This document shows, in pieces, positions 416 through 9,149 of a stretch of 10,060 nt of DNA. Position 1 is the stretch's first letter, and each line of letters opens with the position of its first letter. A program made the translations under genes and the position numbers. Under the pieces are notes generated by a model. The model was not told the origin of the DNA and did not search any database. It worked only from the letters and a program-made list of their open reading frames with translations. Origin of the DNA: Nitrospinota bacterium (lineage in GTDB: Bacteria; Nitrospinota; Nitrospinia; Nitrospinales; VA-1); assembly GCA_002731985.1 (NCBI GenBank), contig PCCT01000036.1:4897-14956 (forward strand), read 5' to 3'.

Positions 416-2242
416 ATGGAAGCGGTAGAAACAAAAGAGCAGGCTACCGAACAGAATAAGGGCACGGTAAAGATCACCGTTTGTAAAAGTCTCAGTGGAA
501 TCGCTGAGGGCAGTGAACTGGTGTATCAGGAATTTGAGAAGCAGATCAAAGAGCTTGAAGCCAATGCCGAGCTGGGCCCGGGAGGATGCAATATGGGCCA
601 GGTAGGTTGCCGGGGCTATTGCAGTAGAGATGTGCTGGTCGATGTCTACGTTCCTGGTCAGGATCCGGTGACTTATGAAAAGGTGAAACCGGAGATGGTG
701 GTAAAAATTCTTAAAGACCATGTCATCGGCGGCAAGGTATTCAAGAAAGCCGCGGCCAAGGATGACTACTACGAAAATCTTAAAAAGCAAACGCGGGTCG
801 CTCTTGAATTTGGCGGTCGCATTGATCCAGAAAATATAGACGAATATTTAGAAGTGGGTGGCTACACAGGGTTGAAGAAAGCCCTCACAATGAAGCCCGC
901 CGACATTATCGAAGAAATCATTTCCTCCGGTTTGCGCGGTAAGGGTGGCGGTGGATTTGTCACCGGTCACAAATGGAAAAAGGCCGCCAATGCACCGACT
1001 GATGACCTAGGCACACGCTACATTATGGTCAACGGCGATGAAGGAAACCCGGCGTCCTATATGGACCGCAGTATCATGGAGGGTTGTCCGCATCAGGTGA
1101 TTGAAGGTTTGATTGTTGGCGCTTATGCCATTCAGGCCACTGAAGGAATAATTTACACGCGATCCGATTACTCCATTGCGGTCAGGCGATTGAACATGGC
1201 TCTGGAGCAGGCGCGGGAACGAGGCTTGTTGGGTAAAAACATCAACGGTACTGATTTCAGTTTCGATGTTTATGTTCATGAAGGGGCCGAAGCGTTCATT
1301 GGTGGTGAGTCAACCGCTCTCATGATGTCGGTAGAAGGTAAACGTCCGATGCCTAAGGCACAACCACCGCATTCAGTGAATCAAGGATTGTGGGGCAAAC
1401 CCACACTGCTCAACAACGCAGAGACTTGGGCCACTGTTCCTTCCATCATTAATAAAGGAGCCGGTTGGTACTCCGCGATGGGGAATGATAATGCCAAGGG
1501 ATGCAAAGTCTGGGCACTCGCGGGAAATATAAAATATAACGGCCTCATGGAATTTGATATGAAGACCACCTTCCATGAGGTTATCGAAGATGTTTGTGGT
1601 GGTATTTCCAAGAAGAAAGAACTCAAGGTCATCCATGCCGGTGGTGTTACCGGTGGGTTCCTCCCGCCTTCAAAGGCGAATACGGCACTTGATTATGAGA
1701 GCCTGTTGAAGGAAGGGGTGCTCATGGGGCAGGCCAGTTTTGCGGCCTATGACCAGTCTGCTTGCGTCATCGACTTGGCCAAGTTTTCCATCGGATTCAA
1801 CGAGGCAGAAACTTGCGGTAAGTGCACTCCCTGTCGCATTGGATTAACATTGATCAAAAACAAGCTCGATGATATTTCAGAAGGACGCGGCAAGTTGGAG
1901 GATCTTGATAAACTGAAATCACTTTGTGAGGAAATCAACGTAACGTCACTTTGCGGATTGGGTGAGACAGCGGTCAAGGCGATTCTAACCGGTATCGAGT
2001 ATTTCCGCGCCGAATACGAACGCCACATCACCGACCAGATCTGCGATGCCGCACGTTGTACCGGATTGTACCGTTATATTGTCAAAGAAGATGATTGTGT
2101 CGCCTGCGGTCAGTGTATCAAGCCCTGTCCCACAGGAGCCATCACAGGTGGCACCAGAAAAGTTGCGGCGCACATTGATATGGACTTATGTATCAACTGC
2201 AACGCTTGTTATGATGCCTGCGGTTTTCTGGCGATAGTATAA
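416..2242 (+). CDS. nuoF: NuoF/HydB-like NADH-binding flavoprotein with C-terminal 2x[4Fe-4S] ferredoxin
   Basis: This 608-residue protein belongs to the 51-kDa (NuoF/HoxF/HydB) family, which passes electrons between NAD(H) and iron-sulfur clusters through FMN. Residues 18-80 form a thioredoxin-like ferredoxin domain with C23, C58, C65 and C69; the usual second Cys of the first pair is missing. The FMN/NADH core carries GLRGKGGGGFVTGHKW (172-187), NGDEGNPASYMDR (206-218), GAEAFIGGESTAL (290-302) and GLWGKPTLLNNAE (324-336). The N3-type [4Fe-4S] ligands are C467, C470, C473 and C513. The tail holds two ferredoxin clusters: C561/C564/C567/C571 and C592/C595/C598/C602. The start is supported by AAGGAG at 402-407, 8 nt before the ATG. 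This architecture is typical of soluble NAD-dependent hydrogenase, formate dehydrogenase or BamH-like complexes rather than of plain complex I. No NuoE, NuoG or catalytic partner gene is beside it, so the partner is unknown and the symbol is family-level only. Confidence 0.9.
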   Translation: MEAVETKEQATEQNKGTVKITVCKSLSGIAEGSELVYQEFEKQIKELEANAELGPGGCNMGQVGCRGYCSRDVLVDVYVPGQDPVTYEKVKPEMVVKILKDHVIGGKVFKKAAAKDDYYENLKKQTRVALEFGGRIDPENIDEYLEVGGYTGLKKALTMKPADIIEEIISSGLRGKGGGGFVTGHKWKKAANAPTDDLGTRYIMVNGDEGNPASYMDRSIMEGCPHQVIEGLIVGAYAIQATEGIIYTRSDYSIAVRRLNMALEQARERGLLGKNINGTDFSFDVYVHEGAEAFIGGESTALMMSVEGKRPMPKAQPPHSVNQGLWGKPTLLNNAETWATVPSIINKGAGWYSAMGNDNAKGCKVWALAGNIKYNGLMEFDMKTTFHEVIEDVCGGISKKKELKVIHAGGVTGGFLPPSKANTALDYESLLKEGVLMGQASFAAYDQSACVIDLAKFSIGFNEAETCGKCTPCRIGLTLIKNKLDDISEGRGKLEDLDKLKSLCEEINVTSLCGLGETAVKAILTGIEYFRAEYERHITDQICDAARCTGLYRYIVKEDDCVACGQCIKPCPTGAITGGTRKVAAHIDMDLCINCNACYDACGFLAIV

Positions 2243-2384: not shown

Positions 2385-4103
2385 TCATTCTCTAGGCAAA
2401 TTAACTTTACGTTTTCTGGCGACCTTTTTAGCAGCGCTGTACCCCGCATCAACGTGTCTGGCAATACCGAGTCCGGGATCGTGTGTTAAGACGCGTTCTA
2501 GTCGTGCTTCTTTTTTTCGGGTGCCATCGGCGACAATGACCATTCCTGCATGAAGGGAGTTGCCAATTCCCACGCCACCGCCGTGGTGGAAACTCACCCA
2601 ACTCGCACCGGAAACAGCGTTCAAGGAAAAATTAAGTAAAGGCCAGTCGGCCACAGCATCGCTCCCATCAAGCATTTTTTCAGTTTCCCGGTTGGGCGAG
2701 GCAACGCTACCGCAGTCCAAATGGTCCCGCCCGATCACAATGGGGGCTGATACTTTTCCGGTTTTTACCAACTGACTCATGACCAATCCCATCTTGACGC
2801 GCTCGTCATAACCCAGCCAGCAGACTCGTGTCGGCAGACCCAGTATCGGTACCTGATTTTGAGCTTTCTCAATCCATCTTTTGAGAGAAGGTTTGTTGGG
2901 GAACGTTTTGATCACCGCCTGATCCACTGTCAACAAATCCTTCTTGCGGCCTGAAAGCAGTGCCCAGCGAAAAGGCCCCTGGCCTTCGCAAAAAAGCGGA
3001 CGAATGTACTCCGGGACGAATCCCGGGTAAGCAAAGGTGCCGTCCTTTTTACGAATGAGGAGTCCGCCTTTTTCCGCCTGACCCCGAAGGTTGTTGCCAT
3101 AATCGAAAACAATGGCTCCTTTTTTTTGCAGTGCCATGAGTGCGCGTGCGTGTTTGATAACGGTTGCCTGAGAATGCTTGAGATATTCTGTCGGATCTTT
3201 GTCACGGAGCTTCTGGAACCATTGGAAACTTTTTCCTTCCGGAACGTAATTCATGAAGTTATGCGCCGGTGTTTGATCTGTGACGATGTCAGGAATACGT
3301 TTTCTCTTAATCAGTTCCTGTGCGACAGTTGCTCCGTTTTGTACAATGCAGACACTGACAGGTTTTTTCTCGCCGAGAGACTGGTCGATCCATTTCAGCG
3401 CTTCACCCAAAGAGTCGGTCACTCGATTGAGATAGCCCTCTTTGATTCTTCGTTGCGCCTGTTTTGCATCGACCTCGGCAACAAGAACGCAGGCCTGGTT
3501 CATTGTTCCCGCAAGAGGCTGTGCTCCGCCCATGTTGCCCAGTCCGGAAGTGAAAATCCATTTGCCTGCAAGATTGGAGGATAGAAAATGTTTCTGCGCG
3601 CAGGCGCCAAACGTTTCGTAGGTTCCCTGCAGGATGCCCTGGGTGCCGATATAAATCCAACTCCCGGCTGTCATTTGCCCATACATTGTGAGTCCCATAA
3701 GATCGAGTTGATCAAAGTGCTCCTGAGTCGCGTGGCTGGGCACAAGGTTGGAGTTAGCAATTAAAACACGCGGTGCTTCGGGATGGGTTTGGGCAATGTA
3801 TACCGGTTTTCCGGATTGTATGCAGAGCGTTTGGTCGGATTTTAATCTCTTAAGCTCGGCGACGATGCGGTGGTACTCCTGCCAGTTTCTTGCGGCACGT
3901 CCGCTACCGCCGTAGACGATAAGTTGTTTCCAGTTCAGAGCTACATTTTCATCAAGATTATTTTGCAACATGCGCAAAGCGGCTTCCGTATCCCAGTCGC
4001 AACAACGTGGCTTTAAAGAGCGGCTTGCGCGCGGCGCAGATTTGGGACATTTTCCCATAGCCATGGGTCGTCGTGCAGTTTGTTTAGAGGAGCTTTTACT
4101 CAT
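2385..4103 (-). CDS. hutU: urocanate hydratase, canonical paralogue (HutU1)
   Basis: Urocanase uses tightly bound NAD+ as an electrophile to hydrate urocanate to 4-imidazolone-5-propionate, step two of histidine breakdown in the cytosol. The 572-residue length fits the family (about 550-560). Canonical segments are VYGGSGRAARNW (63-74), MYGQMTAGSWIYIGTQGI (140-157), the glycine-rich GLGNMGGAQPLA (187-198), DQTPAH (276-281), FCEGQGPFRW (371-380), the signature LGLPTRVCWLGYDER (421-435) with the conserved Cys428, GRDHLDCGSVASPNRET (458-474) and HHGGGVGIG (506-514). R379 sits where the family binds the substrate carboxylate. I chose the ATG at 4101-4103: it lies 1 nt after the hutG stop (TAATATG), and its N-terminus MSKSSSK resembles the MNKSTSK start of the other urocanase. 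The frame stays open 26 codons further upstream, but that would overlap hutG by 77 nt. There is no strong Shine-Dalgarno site, so translation is probably coupled to hutG. Confidence 0.95.
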   Translation of the reverse strand: MSKSSSKQTARRPMAMGKCPKSAPRASRSLKPRCCDWDTEAALRMLQNNLDENVALNWKQLIVYGGSGRAARNWQEYHRIVAELKRLKSDQTLCIQSGKPVYIAQTHPEAPRVLIANSNLVPSHATQEHFDQLDLMGLTMYGQMTAGSWIYIGTQGILQGTYETFGACAQKHFLSSNLAGKWIFTSGLGNMGGAQPLAGTMNQACVLVAEVDAKQAQRRIKEGYLNRVTDSLGEALKWIDQSLGEKKPVSVCIVQNGATVAQELIKRKRIPDIVTDQTPAHNFMNYVPEGKSFQWFQKLRDKDPTEYLKHSQATVIKHARALMALQKKGAIVFDYGNNLRGQAEKGGLLIRKKDGTFAYPGFVPEYIRPLFCEGQGPFRWALLSGRKKDLLTVDQAVIKTFPNKPSLKRWIEKAQNQVPILGLPTRVCWLGYDERVKMGLVMSQLVKTGKVSAPIVIGRDHLDCGSVASPNRETEKMLDGSDAVADWPLLNFSLNAVSGASWVSFHHGGGVGIGNSLHAGMVIVADGTRKKEARLERVLTHDPGLGIARHVDAGYSAAKKVARKRKVNLPRE

Positions 4104-4104
4104 A

Positions 4105-5016
4105 TTATTTTTGTTTTCTCTGTAAATAGCCGAGACAGAACTGATGGAAAATCGAGGCGGCGAGACGTCCCGTACGCTCATCTTCTATTACCGGATTGTA
4201 TTCGGATAGATCGAACAATTCCACTGCAGGATGCTCCCCGGCATGGAAGGCAATTGCGGTGGCTTCATCGGCATTCAATCCGGTCACGCCCGGACATGAA
4301 ACACCCGGAGCGTCGTTCCCGGCAATAGAGTCAAGATCGAAGCTCACGAAAATTGACTGGCACTCCTTAGCCAGTTTGCCGAGAGCAGACCGAAATGTAT
4401 CAATGATCGCACCTTGTTTACAGATTTCCTCCAGCCAGTAGATACTTCCATAATTACCCAGAACAAATTGAGTGTGTTCACTAGAGCATTGGTTTCCCTG
4501 AGAAGCAAATTCTACGAAATGATTTCCAAAAAATCGCTCGTCTTCCAGTAGCAGTCGGAAAGGGGACCCGCTGTGCGCACGTCCTTTTTTCAAAGGCCGC
4601 ACATCCAGATGAGCGTCAACGTTGATCACGCCAATCACTTGTTCCGATTTTTTATCAAGCAGGGCAGAAGCGTTTGGGTAGGACTGGTCGTTACTTCCAC
4701 CAACAACGAACGGAATGGAATCCGATTGTAAAATTTCTCTAGTTCGGAAGGTCAGCTCCGAGTGAGCTTCCTCAAGTGGAAGATTTGGGGAGATGTCTCC
4801 TGCGTCCGCTATTATCAAATTGGATAAATCGGATTCAGTATGCATACTCCCAACAGCGTCATATTTGTTAATCCAGAACCGGAATTTTTCAGGCCCATGT
4901 TTTGCCCCAGGTCGACCTTTGTTGATAGCGACACCTTCATCGTGAGGGAAGCCCAGCAAAACGACATCGCCTTCTTTCCCCGGGCGGATGATATTTTCAA
5001 ATTTGTTATTGTTCAC
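4105..5016 (-). CDS. hutG: arginase-family hydrolase, probable formimidoylglutamase
   Basis: This 303-residue protein is a ureohydrolase-fold enzyme. Its place between hutI and hutU points to hydrolysis of N-formimino-L-glutamate to glutamate and formamide, the last hut step. Recognisable motifs are the N-terminal DVVLLGFPHDEGVAINKGRPG (17-37), VVGGSNDQSYPN (104-115), NVDAHLDVRP (132-141) with metal ligands D134, H136 and D138, FVSFDLDS (223-230) with D227 and D229, and APGVSCPG (236-243). The first motif is usually GGDHS or GGGHE; here the ligand His is replaced by Asn109. Some formimidoylglutamase-like proteins appear to vary at this site, so it may mark a subfamily rather than loss of function. 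The start is GTG at 5014-5016, just after an in-frame TGA, with no convincing Shine-Dalgarno site. A 79-nt spacer separates it from hutI, the only sizeable gap in the operon. Agmatinase is an alternative but context argues against it. Confidence 0.85.
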   Translation of the reverse strand: MNNNKFENIIRPGKEGDVVLLGFPHDEGVAINKGRPGAKHGPEKFRFWINKYDAVGSMHTESDLSNLIIADAGDISPNLPLEEAHSELTFRTREILQSDSIPFVVGGSNDQSYPNASALLDKKSEQVIGVINVDAHLDVRPLKKGRAHSGSPFRLLLEDERFFGNHFVEFASQGNQCSSEHTQFVLGNYGSIYWLEEICKQGAIIDTFRSALGKLAKECQSIFVSFDLDSIAGNDAPGVSCPGVTGLNADEATAIAFHAGEHPAVELFDLSEYNPVIEDERTGRLAASIFHQFCLGYLQRKQK

Positions 5017-5095: not shown

Positions 5096-6331
5096 TTATT
5101 CGATTGCAGGGTTTTTAGGAATACGGACGGGGTTGCCCTGTATAAAAGTTTGGTCTACGAAATTTTCACCGAAATAATAAAACAAGTCCCTGTAGTCTTT
5201 CGTTTTAAGCGTGAGAAAATCTGCGCGTTGTCCGGGTTGGAGCGAGCCGTATTCCTTGTGGCCTTCCAGGGCTTTAGCCGAGCCGTAAGTCGCGGCAACA
5301 AGCGCTTGCTCAGGTGTGATGCGATACAGGTGACAGGCAAGGTTAAGAACAGTTTGCATATTGTAAGTGGGGGAACTGCCCGGATTGCAGTCTGTTGCCA
5401 GAGCAAGGGTGACCCCGGCGTCCAGCATGCTGTGAACAAGCGGTATTTTTTCTCCGCCGAGAAAGAAGGTGACGCCGGGCATGAGGACGGCGACAGTGTC
5501 ACCGTGTTTCATGGCGCGAATGTCTCGAGGATTCGCGTATTCCAAGTGATCGCAGGAGACAGCTCCCAACCGGGCGGCTTCAGCGCACCCCCCTTGATAT
5601 GATAGCTCTTCGACATGCGCCCGAAGTTGGGTGAACCCGACCAGTTTAGCGTGCAGGAAGAGGCGCTTGAGATCCTTAACCGAGAACACGTCCTCTTCGC
5701 AAAAGATGTCAACACCATCGGCAAGGTCGCGGAACTGAGGTAGATGTTCCATTATGAAATCGAAATATTCCGACCGCGTTGAGCCATCGGGTACCGCATG
5801 TGCTCCCAAGTAAGTGAGAGTCACGGGAACAGAGAGTTCTTTTTTTAAACGGCTGCCTACGGAGAGTATTTTTTTTTCGGTATCGAGATCAAGTCCGTAT
5901 CCAGATTTAATTTCAAACGCGGTGGTGCCCAACGCCACCATTCGCCTCATGCGTGCCTTGGCTGTTTTGAGCAGGGACTTTTCATCGGCTTCGCGTGTAG
6001 CGTTAACAGTGTTTAGAATGCCACCGCCACTTTGAAGGATATCCAGATAAGATGATCCACTCAGCCGGCATTCCATTTCACTTTTACGTTCACCCGCATA
6101 GATCAGATGCGTATGGCAGTCTACGAGACCGGGGATAACGGTTTTACCTTTCAGGTCGATTACTTTGGAATAGTTGGAAGACTTTAATCCTGAACCCTTG
6201 AGCACCTTTTCAACGCGCCCGTTTTTAACAATGAGGGCACGCCCGTCTGAGATTTTTAAACGGGGTGGTTGGCTTGTAGCATCCACCTGTACCAGTTGCC
6301 CGATATTTCTGAAACAGATCGTGTCGTTCAT
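5096..6331 (-). CDS. hutI: imidazolonepropionase (HutI)
   Basis: This 411-residue amidohydrolase opens the imidazolone ring of 4-imidazolone-5-propionate to give N-formimino-L-glutamate, step three of histidine degradation. The length matches the family. The metal ligands are visible as H73 and H75 in VIPGLVDCHTHLIYAG (65-80), H239 in RAHVEELS (237-244) and D314 in LATDCNPGSSPTYNMQT (311-327). Substrate-pocket segments include ERKSEMECRLSG (81-92), KSGYGLDLDTE (142-152) and TYLGAHAVP (173-181), with H178 in the last. The ATG (6329-6331) shares one base with the stop codon of the upstream urocanase paralogue in a TAATG overlap, so the two are translationally coupled. Nothing in the protein looks broken or unusual. 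Confidence 0.95.
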   Translation of the reverse strand: MNDTICFRNIGQLVQVDATSQPPRLKISDGRALIVKNGRVEKVLKGSGLKSSNYSKVIDLKGKTVIPGLVDCHTHLIYAGERKSEMECRLSGSSYLDILQSGGGILNTVNATREADEKSLLKTAKARMRRMVALGTTAFEIKSGYGLDLDTEKKILSVGSRLKKELSVPVTLTYLGAHAVPDGSTRSEYFDFIMEHLPQFRDLADGVDIFCEEDVFSVKDLKRLFLHAKLVGFTQLRAHVEELSYQGGCAEAARLGAVSCDHLEYANPRDIRAMKHGDTVAVLMPGVTFFLGGEKIPLVHSMLDAGVTLALATDCNPGSSPTYNMQTVLNLACHLYRITPEQALVAATYGSAKALEGHKEYGSLQPGQRADFLTLKTKDYRDLFYYFGENFVDQTFIQGNPVRIPKNPAIE

Positions 6332-8082
6332 TATCTCTTGGGAAGATTGATTTTGTTTTTAGCGGCAAACTTTTTAGCCTTGCTGTAACCGGCATCTGCG
6401 TGTCGGGCGATGCCCAGTCCGGGATCATTTGTTAAAACACGTTCAATTCGGATTTCTTTATCTCGCGTTCCATCAGCGACAATGATCATTCCTGTATGGA
6501 GAGATTTCCCGATGCCCGCTTCACCGCCATGGTGGAAGCTCACCCAACTGGCACCGGAAACGGCATTGAGTGAAAAATTGAGCAAAGGCCAATCGGCCAC
6601 AGCATCGCTTCCATCAAGCATGTTGGACGTTTCCCTTGAAGGCGAGGCGATGCTTCCGCAATCGATGTGGTCGCGTCCGATAACAACAGGAGCCGCCACT
6701 TTTCCAGATTTTACCAGCTGATTGATGATGAGTCCCATTTTGACACGTTCTCTGTAGCCAAGCCAGCAGACCCGGCTTGGCAGACCAAGAATGTCCACCT
6801 GGTTTTGAGCTTTTTCGATCCACCGTTTGAGTGCGGTATTTTTCGGAAACGCTTTAATCAATGCTTTGTCGATAGTGAACAGGTCCTTTTTTAAACCGGA
6901 AAGCACTGTCCAGTGTAAGGCTCCCTGGCCCTGGCAAAAAAGCGGACGTATGTATCCCTCAATAAAACCGGGGTAGGCAAAAGATCCATCCTTATTACGG
7001 ATGGAGAGTCCGTATCGTTCTGCCTGTTCGCGTAGTTGGTTGCCATAATCAAAAACGACGGCTCCCTTTTTTTGCAGTTCCATAAGTGCACGGGCGTGCT
7101 TGACGACAGTGGCCTTGGATCGCTCAAGATATTCTTCAGGATCTTTGTCGCGAAACCATAAGTTCCAGCTATAGCTTTTTCCTTCAGGGATATATTCCAT
7201 GAGGTCGTGTGCCGGGGTTTGGTCGGTGACAATATCTGGAATGCGTTTTCGTTTAAGAAGTTCCCGTGCTACCGTTGCGGCATTTTCAACGATGCAGACA
7301 CTGATGGGTTTCTTTTCTCTGATTCCTTTATCGATCCATTCGAGTGCTGTATCCAACGAGTCAGTCACCCAGTTCAGGTAGCCATCGTTTACCTGTTGTT
7401 GAGCTTCCTCCGCATTGACTTCGGCTATAAGAACACAAGCTTCGTTCATTGTTCCCGCGAGCGGTTGTGCTTCGCCCGCGTAGCCGAGTCCTGACGTGAA
7501 AATCCATTTGCCCGCCAAGCTGGAAGTTTTGAAATGTTTATGGGCGCAGGCGTTGAAGGTTTCGTAGGTACCTTGAAGTATTCCCTGCGGTCCGGTGTAG
7601 TTCCAGCTTCCTGCAGTCATTTGTCCGTCCATCATGAGACCCATGAGGTCCAGTTGGTCGAATGTTTTTTGTGTGGCATGGCTGGGAACAAGATTGCTGT
7701 TGGCAATGATAACCCTTGGCGCTCCATGATGTGTCTCGGCAACATAGACAGGTTTCCCAGACTGAATGCAAAGAGTCTGGTCAGATTTCAACCGCTTGAG
7801 TTCCGCAACGATGCGGTGATATTCTTTCCAGTTTCGGGCGGCGCGGCCTGCTTCTCCATAAACGTTAAGCTGTTTCCAATCGATAGCAATATCATCGTCA
7901 AGGTTATTCTGCAACATACGCAAAGCGGCCTCTACATCCCAATCGCAACACTTGGGTTTCAAAGCGCGGCTTGCCCGCGGGGCAGACTTCGGACACTTCC
8001 CCATAACCATAGGTCTCTTGTCCGGCAAGGTTTTGGAGTTTTTGCGACGGGTTGAAGTTTCTTTTGATGTGCTCTTGTTCAT
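6331..8082 (-). CDS. hutU: urocanase-family protein, divergent active-site paralogue (HutU2)
   Basis: This 583-residue urocanase paralogue is first in the operon. It aligns without large gaps to the urocanase at 2385-4103 and keeps the signature LGLPSRVCWLGYRER (432-446) with Cys439, as well as DQTPAHD (287-293). Many cofactor and substrate loops differ from the canonical family: YGG to YGE (E77), MYGQ to MDGQ (D152), SWIYIGTQ to SWNYTGPQ (N161, T163, P165), GLGNMGGAQ to GLGYAGEAQ (Y201, A202, E204), CEGQGPFRW to CQGQGALHW (Q384, A388, L389, H390), ASPNRET to ASPSRET (S482) and HHGGGVG to HHGGEAG (E521, A522). It may act on a modified urocanate, such as the thio- and S-methylthio-urocanates used by known family members, or be a non-catalytic partner of the other urocanase. 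The frame is intact. Start: ATG 8080-8082 with AAGGA (8094-8098) 11 nt upstream. Membership in the family is certain; urocanate hydratase activity is not. Confidence 0.9.
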   Translation of the reverse strand: MNKSTSKETSTRRKNSKTLPDKRPMVMGKCPKSAPRASRALKPKCCDWDVEAALRMLQNNLDDDIAIDWKQLNVYGEAGRAARNWKEYHRIVAELKRLKSDQTLCIQSGKPVYVAETHHGAPRVIIANSNLVPSHATQKTFDQLDLMGLMMDGQMTAGSWNYTGPQGILQGTYETFNACAHKHFKTSSLAGKWIFTSGLGYAGEAQPLAGTMNEACVLIAEVNAEEAQQQVNDGYLNWVTDSLDTALEWIDKGIREKKPISVCIVENAATVARELLKRKRIPDIVTDQTPAHDLMEYIPEGKSYSWNLWFRDKDPEEYLERSKATVVKHARALMELQKKGAVVFDYGNQLREQAERYGLSIRNKDGSFAYPGFIEGYIRPLFCQGQGALHWTVLSGLKKDLFTIDKALIKAFPKNTALKRWIEKAQNQVDILGLPSRVCWLGYRERVKMGLIINQLVKSGKVAAPVVIGRDHIDCGSIASPSRETSNMLDGSDAVADWPLLNFSLNAVSGASWVSFHHGGEAGIGKSLHTGMIIVADGTRDKEIRIERVLTNDPGLGIARHADAGYSKAKKFAAKNKINLPKR

Positions 8083-8120
8083 GGGTGTGAATTTCCTTTC
8101 ATGGAGTCGATCATAGTATG

Positions 8121-8149
8121 TTTATAGAGTTAGAAAAGGGATTTGTAAA
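8121..8149 (-). promoter_or_regulatory. sigma70-type promoter of the hut operon
   Basis: Read on the minus strand, TTTACA (8149-8144) and TATAAA (8126-8121) are separated by exactly 17 nt, and each is one base from consensus. Transcription would start near 8114 and give a leader of about 30 nt containing the AAGGA ribosome site of the first urocanase gene. I see no clear operator palindrome over the boxes. Confidence 0.65.
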
Positions 8150-8318: not shown

Positions 8319-8693
8319 ATGACAGATGCTGTTAGCGCACTTAAATTAGCAATCGAGCTTGAAAAGCAAGCTCTGGAAAAGTACAGGGAAGCGCTTCTTC
8401 ATGTAACCCATGCGCAGACGCGCCAGGCAGTTGAAAGGTATGCTTCAGAAAAAAACCAGCAAATTGATTCCCTTCACTGGATGATTATGGCCGAAGAGGG
8501 AACGCTGGAAACGGAAGAGGCTCCTGCCGCCGTCGAAGAAGAAAAACCCAAAGCTGGGAAATGCCCCTTCTCCGGAGCGCTGGCGGAAATGGGAGTGGAT
8601 ATAACTAAGATGGGTGATATGGGCAAGACGGGCGATATGAGTAAAATGGCTGAAATGATGAAAGGAATGTCGCCCGACGAACCTAAGTCCTGA
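8319..8693 (+). CDS. small ferritin/rubrerythrin-like helical-hairpin protein with CPF motif and Met-rich tail
   Basis: This 124-residue, probably cytosolic protein has three parts. Residues 4-60 form two amphipathic helices resembling half of a rubrerythrin/ferritin-like four-helix bundle, with E13, E15, E20, Y22, E44 and H53; a pair of hairpins could build a bundle by dimerisation. The usual E-x-x-H of the second helix reads E44-K-N-Q47, so a normal di-iron site is doubtful. An acidic, proline-containing linker (62-78) follows, then GKCPFSG (80-86) with the only Cys. The tail (91-117) has repeated Met-Gly-Asp and Met-Ser/Ala-Lys/Glu steps and nine methionines. GGAGA (8306-8310, within GGGAGA) lies 8 nt before the ATG. 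It is followed after 30 nt by the zinc-ribbon gene and is probably co-transcribed with it. I do not know a characterised protein with this layout; metal binding or stress sensing is a guess. Confidence 0.85.
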   Translation: MTDAVSALKLAIELEKQALEKYREALLHVTHAQTRQAVERYASEKNQQIDSLHWMIMAEEGTLETEEAPAAVEEEKPKAGKCPFSGALAEMGVDITKMGDMGKTGDMSKMAEMMKGMSPDEPKS

Positions 8694-8723: not shown

Positions 8724-9149
8724 ATGAACAGTAAAACGCCTTATGATTTGTTGATAGAGTGCCGTAGTTGCGGCATAGAAAATAATATAGTTGATTACGT
8801 TCCAAGCATGCGTATATTTTGCAGTCAGTGCCGGGAACGATTGATAGATGCTGACATCGTAGAAACGCACCGCGAGTTTGTTTGTCAGAAGTGCGATATG
8901 AAGATGGTTTTGTTGCAGGCCACCGAGGTCAAACTGGGCGAGTCGGCCTGTTCATGCGGGAGCACCGATTTGCTTGAAGTGGGTCAAACCACCCTCCCTG
9001 ATGAAGCCGCTAAGGTGGGCGGATTGATTGATCTGGCGGAGGATGACAACGATGTATTGGAAGACACAGACTGGCTGAGGTCGGGCCTGAGTGAAATAGA
9101 TGATGATGACTATGACGAAATGTTCAATCAAGACCCTGGTCATAGTTAA
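8724..9149 (+). CDS. double zinc-ribbon protein with acidic C-terminal tail
   Basis: This 141-residue cytosolic protein has four cysteine pairs. C13-x2-C16 and C33-x2-C36 make the first zinc ribbon. C54-x2-C57 and C76-x-C78 make a second one whose last pair is a tighter CxC. From about residue 105 the tail is strongly acidic (DLAEDDNDVLEDTD and DDDDYDE), probably disordered, with a tryptophan at 117. Such zinc ribbons commonly serve nucleic-acid or protein contacts, and an acidic tail could mimic nucleic acid or bind a basic partner; neither role is shown here. AAGGA (8706-8710) lies 13 nt before the ATG, a longer gap than ideal. The gene starts 30 nt after the ferritin-like gene and likely shares its transcript. 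No terminator-like hairpin with a T-run was found between its stop and the next gene. Family not recognised. Confidence 0.82.
   Translation: MNSKTPYDLLIECRSCGIENNIVDYVPSMRIFCSQCRERLIDADIVETHREFVCQKCDMKMVLLQATEVKLGESACSCGSTDLLEVGQTTLPDEAAKVGGLIDLAEDDNDVLEDTDWLRSGLSEIDDDDYDEMFNQDPGHS

Follow-up and report, generated by a model that had tools for sequence, protein, structure and literature searches.

A diverged urocanase paralogue of Nitrospinota retained in relatives in which its pathway was not found

Two urocanase genes in one hut locus

The stretch of DNA analysed here (the window, 10,060 nucleotides) carries two urocanase genes that bracket hutI and a hutG-like gene, all four lying on the minus strand. 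The canonical copy, hutU1 (2385..4103, 572 aa counted from the inner methionine), is followed by the hutG-like gene of the arginase family (4105..5016), the imidazolonepropionase gene hutI (5096..6331) and the second paralogue, hutU2 (6331..8082, 583 aa), the stop of which is overlapped by the hutI start at position 6331. HutI scored above its family cut-off (TIGR01224, 405.9 bits vs a cut-off of 298.15), and the hutG-like product stayed under the one for TIGR01227 (160.6 bits; cut-off 229.15). Both urocanases matched the hutU family over their full length, and their scores (HutU2 725.9 and HutU1 794.2 bits) passed the TIGR01228 cut-off of 375. The open reading frame of hutU2 is intact and present as the first-pass annotation had placed it. 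The longest open reading frame of hutU1 (2385-4181) begins inside hutG, 26 codons upstream, and the inner methionine at 4103 fits the starts of its relatives better. Provided that HutU1 is read from this methionine, all 13 residue changes listed between the two copies in that annotation, as well as C439 of HutU2, are correct at their numbers. Its description of the flanking sequence as nearly identical was loose, since the two proteins are 75% identical overall, with 137 differences over 572 aligned residues, of which the 13 listed changes are a selection.

Upstream of hutU2, a conserved block (8092..8149, minus strand) consists of TTTACA (8149-8144), a spacing of 17 bases, TATAAA (8126-8121) and, further downstream, AAGGAAA (8098-8092). 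In an alignment of this region from the genome of the window species (G000), two further genomes (G046 and G048) and one contig (L031), TTTACA and AAGGAAA were found in 4/4 and TATAAA in 3/4. Judged by eye, the block looks promoter-like and ribosome-binding-site-like; a consensus scan did not list it. The locus is bordered on one side by a NuoF-like gene (416..2242, plus strand, 608 aa), which also borders it in relatives without hutI, hutG and hutU1, and on the other side by a divergent gene with a weak, below-cut-off match to DUF2383 (8319..8693, plus strand) and by a gene for a 141-aa protein without a Pfam match (8724..9149, plus strand), which adjoins the locus in G048 and L031 as well.

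The nearest named relatives are recorded as “uncultured Nitrospina sp.”, “Nitrospina sp.” and “Nitrospinaceae bacterium”; members of Nitrospina live in the sea and oxidise nitrite. In G000, which is 65% complete, hutH lies on another contig (G000:C2:2898-4394), and the window species therefore has hutH, hutU, hutI and a hutG-like gene; hutH and hutI are also present in G046.

Origin, retention and constraint of the second copy

The order hutG-hutU-hutI was observed in 15/15 single-copy loci compared within the order, three further genomes with matches being left out of this count, and the order hutU2-hutI-hutG-hutU1 in G000 and G046. In a rapid maximum-likelihood analysis of 66 rows, with SH-aLRT as the only measure of support, the two copies grouped together (SH-aLRT 99) and derived HutU2 fell into a single clade of 39 rows (SH-aLRT 100) with a stem of 0.16, the stem of the HutU1 pair being 0.067. 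Gene order and tree together suggest that a hutG-hutU-hutI block was duplicated in tandem in an ancestor of the genus, and that the present hutU2-hutI-hutG-hutU1 arrangement is what was left of the two blocks once the outer hutG and hutI had disappeared. Two canonical-type sequences, P0030 and P0031, branch at the base of the HutU2 side (SH-aLRT 96) and were excluded from the 39-row derived HutU2 counts; they may represent HutU2 before its change or misplaced HutU1 copies. Identity plotted along the sequence revealed two short stretches in which L031 is equally near to both copies, raising a question of gene conversion.

Of 7999 proteins scored, the best 120, drawn from catalogues that favour intact genes, included 33 clusters (639 member sequences) of derived HutU2 and three canonical-type clusters of the same lineage (P0030, P0031 and P0035). 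The same three clusters led again when HutU1 was the query, and no further canonical-type match above 78% appeared among the best listed.

A HutU2-type gene, 79-85% identical to HutU2 of the window, is the only urocanase at the locus in three genomes (G048, G049 and G050) and in L031, and hutI, hutG and hutU1 are absent beside it there. In these four hutU2-only loci hutU2 stops 52-56 bases short of the point where the NuoF-like gene ends, whereas the window has hutI, hutG and hutU1 in that place. Both flanks of the locus are visible in G048 and L031, and the contigs of G049 and G050 stop at or inside hutU2 on the upstream side. Searched as whole genomes, G048, G049 and G050, which are incomplete (85, 61 and 84% complete, respectively), yielded no hutH, no member of the PF00221 lyase family, no hutI, no hutG and no second urocanase; L031 was examined at the locus only. 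The chance that hutH was missed in each of the three genomes through incompleteness alone is about 0.01, taken as the product of the missing fractions. No urocanase at all was found in three of eight genus genomes (G047, G051 and G052; 71, 83 and 84% complete, with the locus not in view), and hutU2 is either not universal in the genus or was missed in these three. The L031 contig carries a Nitrospinaceae-type locus and is filed under Candidatus Neomarinimicrobiota, probably through a binning error. In G049, a single-cell genome, the hutU2 gene (L043 64-1811) is split over two frames near 1062-1077, which reflects either an assembly error or a real break.

This distribution bears on a proposal of the first-pass annotation, that the paralogue regulates the canonical copy. 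Urocanase is a homodimer, and both genes belong to a single gene run in the window and in G046, as would suit a HutU2 that forms a mixed dimer with HutU1 or regulates it; because four loci keep hutU2 without hutU1, however, and the three genomes searched show no second urocanase, HutU2 is very probably not only a regulator of HutU1. We have set aside partnership with, or regulation of, HutU1 as the sole role of HutU2, and an explanation of this kind appears very improbable.

Among the hutU2-only loci, pairwise Nei-Gojobori dN/dS of hutU2 ranged from 0.057 to 0.118 at dS 0.60-1.30 (nine comparisons), and single-copy urocanases gave 0.047-0.104 in 18 of 21 pairs, these being the unsaturated ones. 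Between G000 and G046 the values were 0.061 for hutU2, 0.078 for hutU1, 0.099 for hutI, 0.148 for hutG and 0.036 for NuoF; the hutG-like protein is the fastest-diverging one in the operon (78% identity between these two genomes). Under a codon model, omega was 0.118 for the hutU2-only set (four rows, with G049 represented by its second piece alone), 0.094 for hutU2 in five genomes and 0.061 for ten single-copy genes. HutU2 is under clear constraint, at about half the strictness seen in single-copy urocanases, and this roughly twofold omega means that relaxed constraint may explain part of the pattern. The suggestion that HutU2 is a paralogue that has diverged and remains under selection, its frame intact, was borne out by the dN/dS range, by both hutU2 omega values and by the strongly supported 39-row clade.

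Plain decay was set aside on dN/dS, omega being far below 1; HutU2 is unlikely to be a decayed relic, because it is constrained in the hutU2-only relatives (omega 0.118). A slower course, in which the pathway has gone and relaxed constraint lets the gene decay without a role, would fit the difference between 0.118 and 0.061, the frame break in G049, the 22 and 16 departures from canonical invariants in G048 and P0026 described below, and the three of eight genus genomes in which urocanase was not found. Against this stand an omega far below 1 even at dS 0.6-1.3, the conserved upstream blocks in two hutU2-only species, and novel residues held in up to 39/39 rows, an argument weakened by the bias of catalogues to intact copies; we regard such a relic as quite unlikely.

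Residue changes and ligand positions

Most of the changes listed in the first-pass annotation, numbered here on HutU1 from the inner methionine and compared with a canonical set of 105 rows, proved to be clade-wide. G66 is replaced in 38/38 derived HutU2 rows (E 36, Q 1, D 1), Y141 in 39/39 (D 38, E 1), I150 in 39/39 (S 32, N 4, C 2, G 1) and V511 in 38/38; I152 has become T in 38/39 rows, T154 has become P in 39/39 and G193 has become E in 39/39. N190 (Y 23, H 9, C 5, S 2) and N471 (S 34, L 5) are likewise replaced in 39/39 rows, serine at each of these positions also occurring in 4/105 canonical rows. By contrast, A202, L389, H390 and E521 occur in the window species alone or in it and a few kin (M191A 1/39, F378L 1/39, R379H 4/38, G510E 5/38). 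The clade-wide novel residues in HutU2 of the window are E77, D152, T163, P165, E204 and E226.

Across the family, 13 of 221 conserved canonical columns carry a different residue in 90% or more of the derived HutU2 rows, namely (in P. putida numbers, used from here on for family columns) G53, Y128, I137, I139, T141, E208, L286, A363, P401, L444, E457, V493 and A501. Among canonical rows, G53, Y128, I137, I139, T141 and V493 show 97% conservation or more, and G53 and Y128, replaced in 38/38 and 39/39 derived rows, are fully conserved there. Conversely, some columns that vary among canonical rows have become fixed in HutU2 (G179 to E, R/Q201 to E and R/K205 to Q, 39/39 each). In total, 18 of 559 columns hold a residue that is fixed in at least 95% of HutU2 rows and occurs in at most 2% of canonical rows. 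Seven fixed acidic residues fall among these HutU2-specific columns, of which one is a change from E to D and one lies where canonical rows often have D, so that the clear acidic gains number five; E77 (36/38) is just under the 95% limit. Overall charge does not separate HutU2 (canonical P0030 +14, HutU2 +16, HutU1 +29).

Much of the catalytic core is retained. The signature cysteine (C439 in HutU2 of the window, C410 in P. putida) is kept in 39/39 derived rows, in agreement with the annotation, as are the equivalents of Y322, H267, N242 and Q263, and of 147 canonical-invariant columns 101 are unchanged throughout derived HutU2; the window copy itself departs at 11 of 148 columns fully conserved in the 105 canonical rows. 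Other canonical invariants drift, including R454 (6/39), H488 (9/39), R361 (4/38) and Q130, T132 and H443 (3/39 each). This drift, together with pathway partners that were not found in the three hutU2-only genomes, would fit a pseudo-enzyme in which single catalytic residues drift, HutU2 no longer being catalytic and binding or sensing an imidazole compound or a nucleotide; the five core equivalents kept in every row and the 101 fully kept invariants speak against it, and we consider it a serious yet distinctly less probable explanation. The P0026 and G048 (P0029) sequences depart at 16 and 22 canonical-invariant columns, R454 and H488 among them in both and Y51 and Q130 among them in P0026, and these two lineages may be the furthest from catalysis.

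A further alternative is an ordinary urocanase with altered kinetics, which would hydrate urocanate, taken up from outside in the hutU2-only species, and whose changes would be nearly neutral. Both copies exceed the hutU cut-off, and hutU2 belongs to an otherwise complete hut gene set in the window and G046; nevertheless, hutI, which would use the product, was not found in the hutU2-only genomes, and the canonical-invariant G53 and Y128 are lost throughout derived HutU2, which makes this explanation improbable.

For the cofactor side, we used 20 NAD+/active-site positions in P. putida numbering, which we take to be those given by HAMAP and whose letters fit the P. putida sequence at 20/20. HutU2 of the window lies inside the canonical range at 15 of them and outside it at five (G53E, G176Y, M177A, R201E and G492E); the claim that canonical NAD+ residues had been lost thus appears overstated. 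Three tests of the accompanying claim, that changes cluster at the active site, gave weak results. Of the 13 clade-replaced columns, 3 lie at most three residues from one of the presumed ligand residues (permutation p 0.43; mean distance p 0.12), and clustering of the changes among themselves gave p 0.12 for the 17 columns kept in <90% of rows and p 0.011 for the 46 columns with any change. The NAD-domain region was not enriched in altered invariants relative to the core (p 0.41 for any change, 0.56 for columns kept in <90%). A contrast of three loops (128-151, 443-457 and 488-502) gave p 0.0001, but these loops were picked after the data had been seen, and the value is not relied on. In linear sequence, clustering at ligand residues is therefore not significant. 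No list of ligand residues was found in the passages of PMC2996407 consulted. The predicted model of HutU2 had a pLDDT of 86.1, with NAD-bound urocanase 7jfz as its best Foldseek match (TM 0.89), and the predicted models of both copies with their Foldseek matches confirm the urocanase fold only.

A putative role outside histidine degradation and comparison with known families

We propose, at a probability of roughly one half, that HutU2 is a repurposed urocanase that works outside histidine degradation with its catalytic core mostly intact. Following the tandem duplication, replacements would have been fixed on the HutU2 stem branch, including acidic residues at or next to the presumed cofactor loops (E77, D152, E204 and E226), while the predicted fold, the signature cysteine and most of the presumed NAD+ contacts were retained, as sequence and model show. 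HutU2 would then have become useful apart from histidine degradation, as in the relatives without hutI, hutG and hutU1 at the locus and with hutH apparently absent from the incomplete genomes searched, in which the gene and its upstream region have been maintained by purifying selection. The protein would keep the urocanase scaffold, probably hold NAD+ differently, and act on or bind a ligand other than urocanate; a modified hydratase-type reaction seems marginally more probable than a role in binding alone. A changed cofactor pocket (E77, E204 and E226) is possible, and a tentative, more specific version of the proposal builds on these three glutamates, which run through the clade and lie at or next to presumed NAD+ contacts. 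In this version the electrostatics of the dinucleotide pocket would have been rebuilt while the hydratase core stayed otherwise intact, and the protein, spread through a widespread lineage of Nitrospina relatives, would have a new role independent of histidine and urocanate, either as a hydratase for another conjugated acid or as a sensor with a borrowed active site.

Urocanase normally serves histidine degradation alone, and every HutU2 copy is labelled “urocanate hydratase” in databases. What is new is that hutU2 apparently outlives its own pathway. As selection maintains the gene in genomes that yielded no such pathway, this name is probably wrong for the whole clade. Species with the operon, paired with species that have hutU2 alone, provide a natural test of the role of HutU2 without histidine degradation. 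On the sequence comparisons presented here, HutU2 would be a genuine and rather unexpected case of a known enzyme put to new use. A urocanase paralogue like this one is the subject of none of the literature titles that were listed.

With classical HutU (TIGR01228; P. putida 1uwk/1uwl, B. subtilis 2fkn and Legionella 7jfz), HutU2 shares the full-length, above-cut-off match, the predicted fold, the signature cysteine and most of the presumed NAD+ contacts. It differs in the clade-wide replacement of G53, Y128, I137, I139, T141 and V493, and in its retention in G048, G049 and G050, where hutI, hutG and hutH were not found. The company of hutH and hutI expected of HutU is thus complete in G000 and G046, whereas neither gene was found in those three genomes. 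More distant matches included L035, L037 and L039 (Bacteroidetes/Ignavibacteriae records), in which a urocanase 52-54% identical to HutU2 occurs with hutI.

Two further families are urocanase relatives. S-methylthiourocanate hydratase (NF058531; 8q9u and 8q9v), compared by score and fold, has superfamily and fold in common with HutU2, and membership of HutU2 in this family was ruled out at 570.6 bits vs a cut-off of 880. Thiourocanate hydratase (NF058530; 7ned) is, like HutU2, a urocanase relative, and its family has a new substrate. One such hydratase, encoded on a Paracoccus plasmid (1040.5 bits; NF058530 cut-off 930), served to find 120 relatives; the cut-off was passed by 7/7 proteins scanned (the Paracoccus plasmid protein and six of the 120), and residues were compared in 41 rows (the same protein and 40 of the 120). 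Urocanase relatives occurred in 697 records of the plasmid collection, of which 227 are listed under Klebsiella.

HutU2 reached 550.4 bits against the NF058530 cut-off of 930, and this score together with the residue pattern ruled out its being a thiourocanate hydratase. Both groups replace G53, Y128, I137, T141, E208, A363 and V493, an overlap of 7 of the 13 columns that is borderline (p 0.051). Thiourocanate hydratases, however, replace Q130, Y322, C410 and R454 in 41/41 rows, whereas HutU2 of the window keeps all four; they keep G176, M177, G178, R201, N242-243, Q263-H267, Y273 and G492, and HutU2 largely shows the reverse pattern. This contrast between residue lists, rather than between structures, suggests that the changes in HutU2 lean to the presumed cofactor side.
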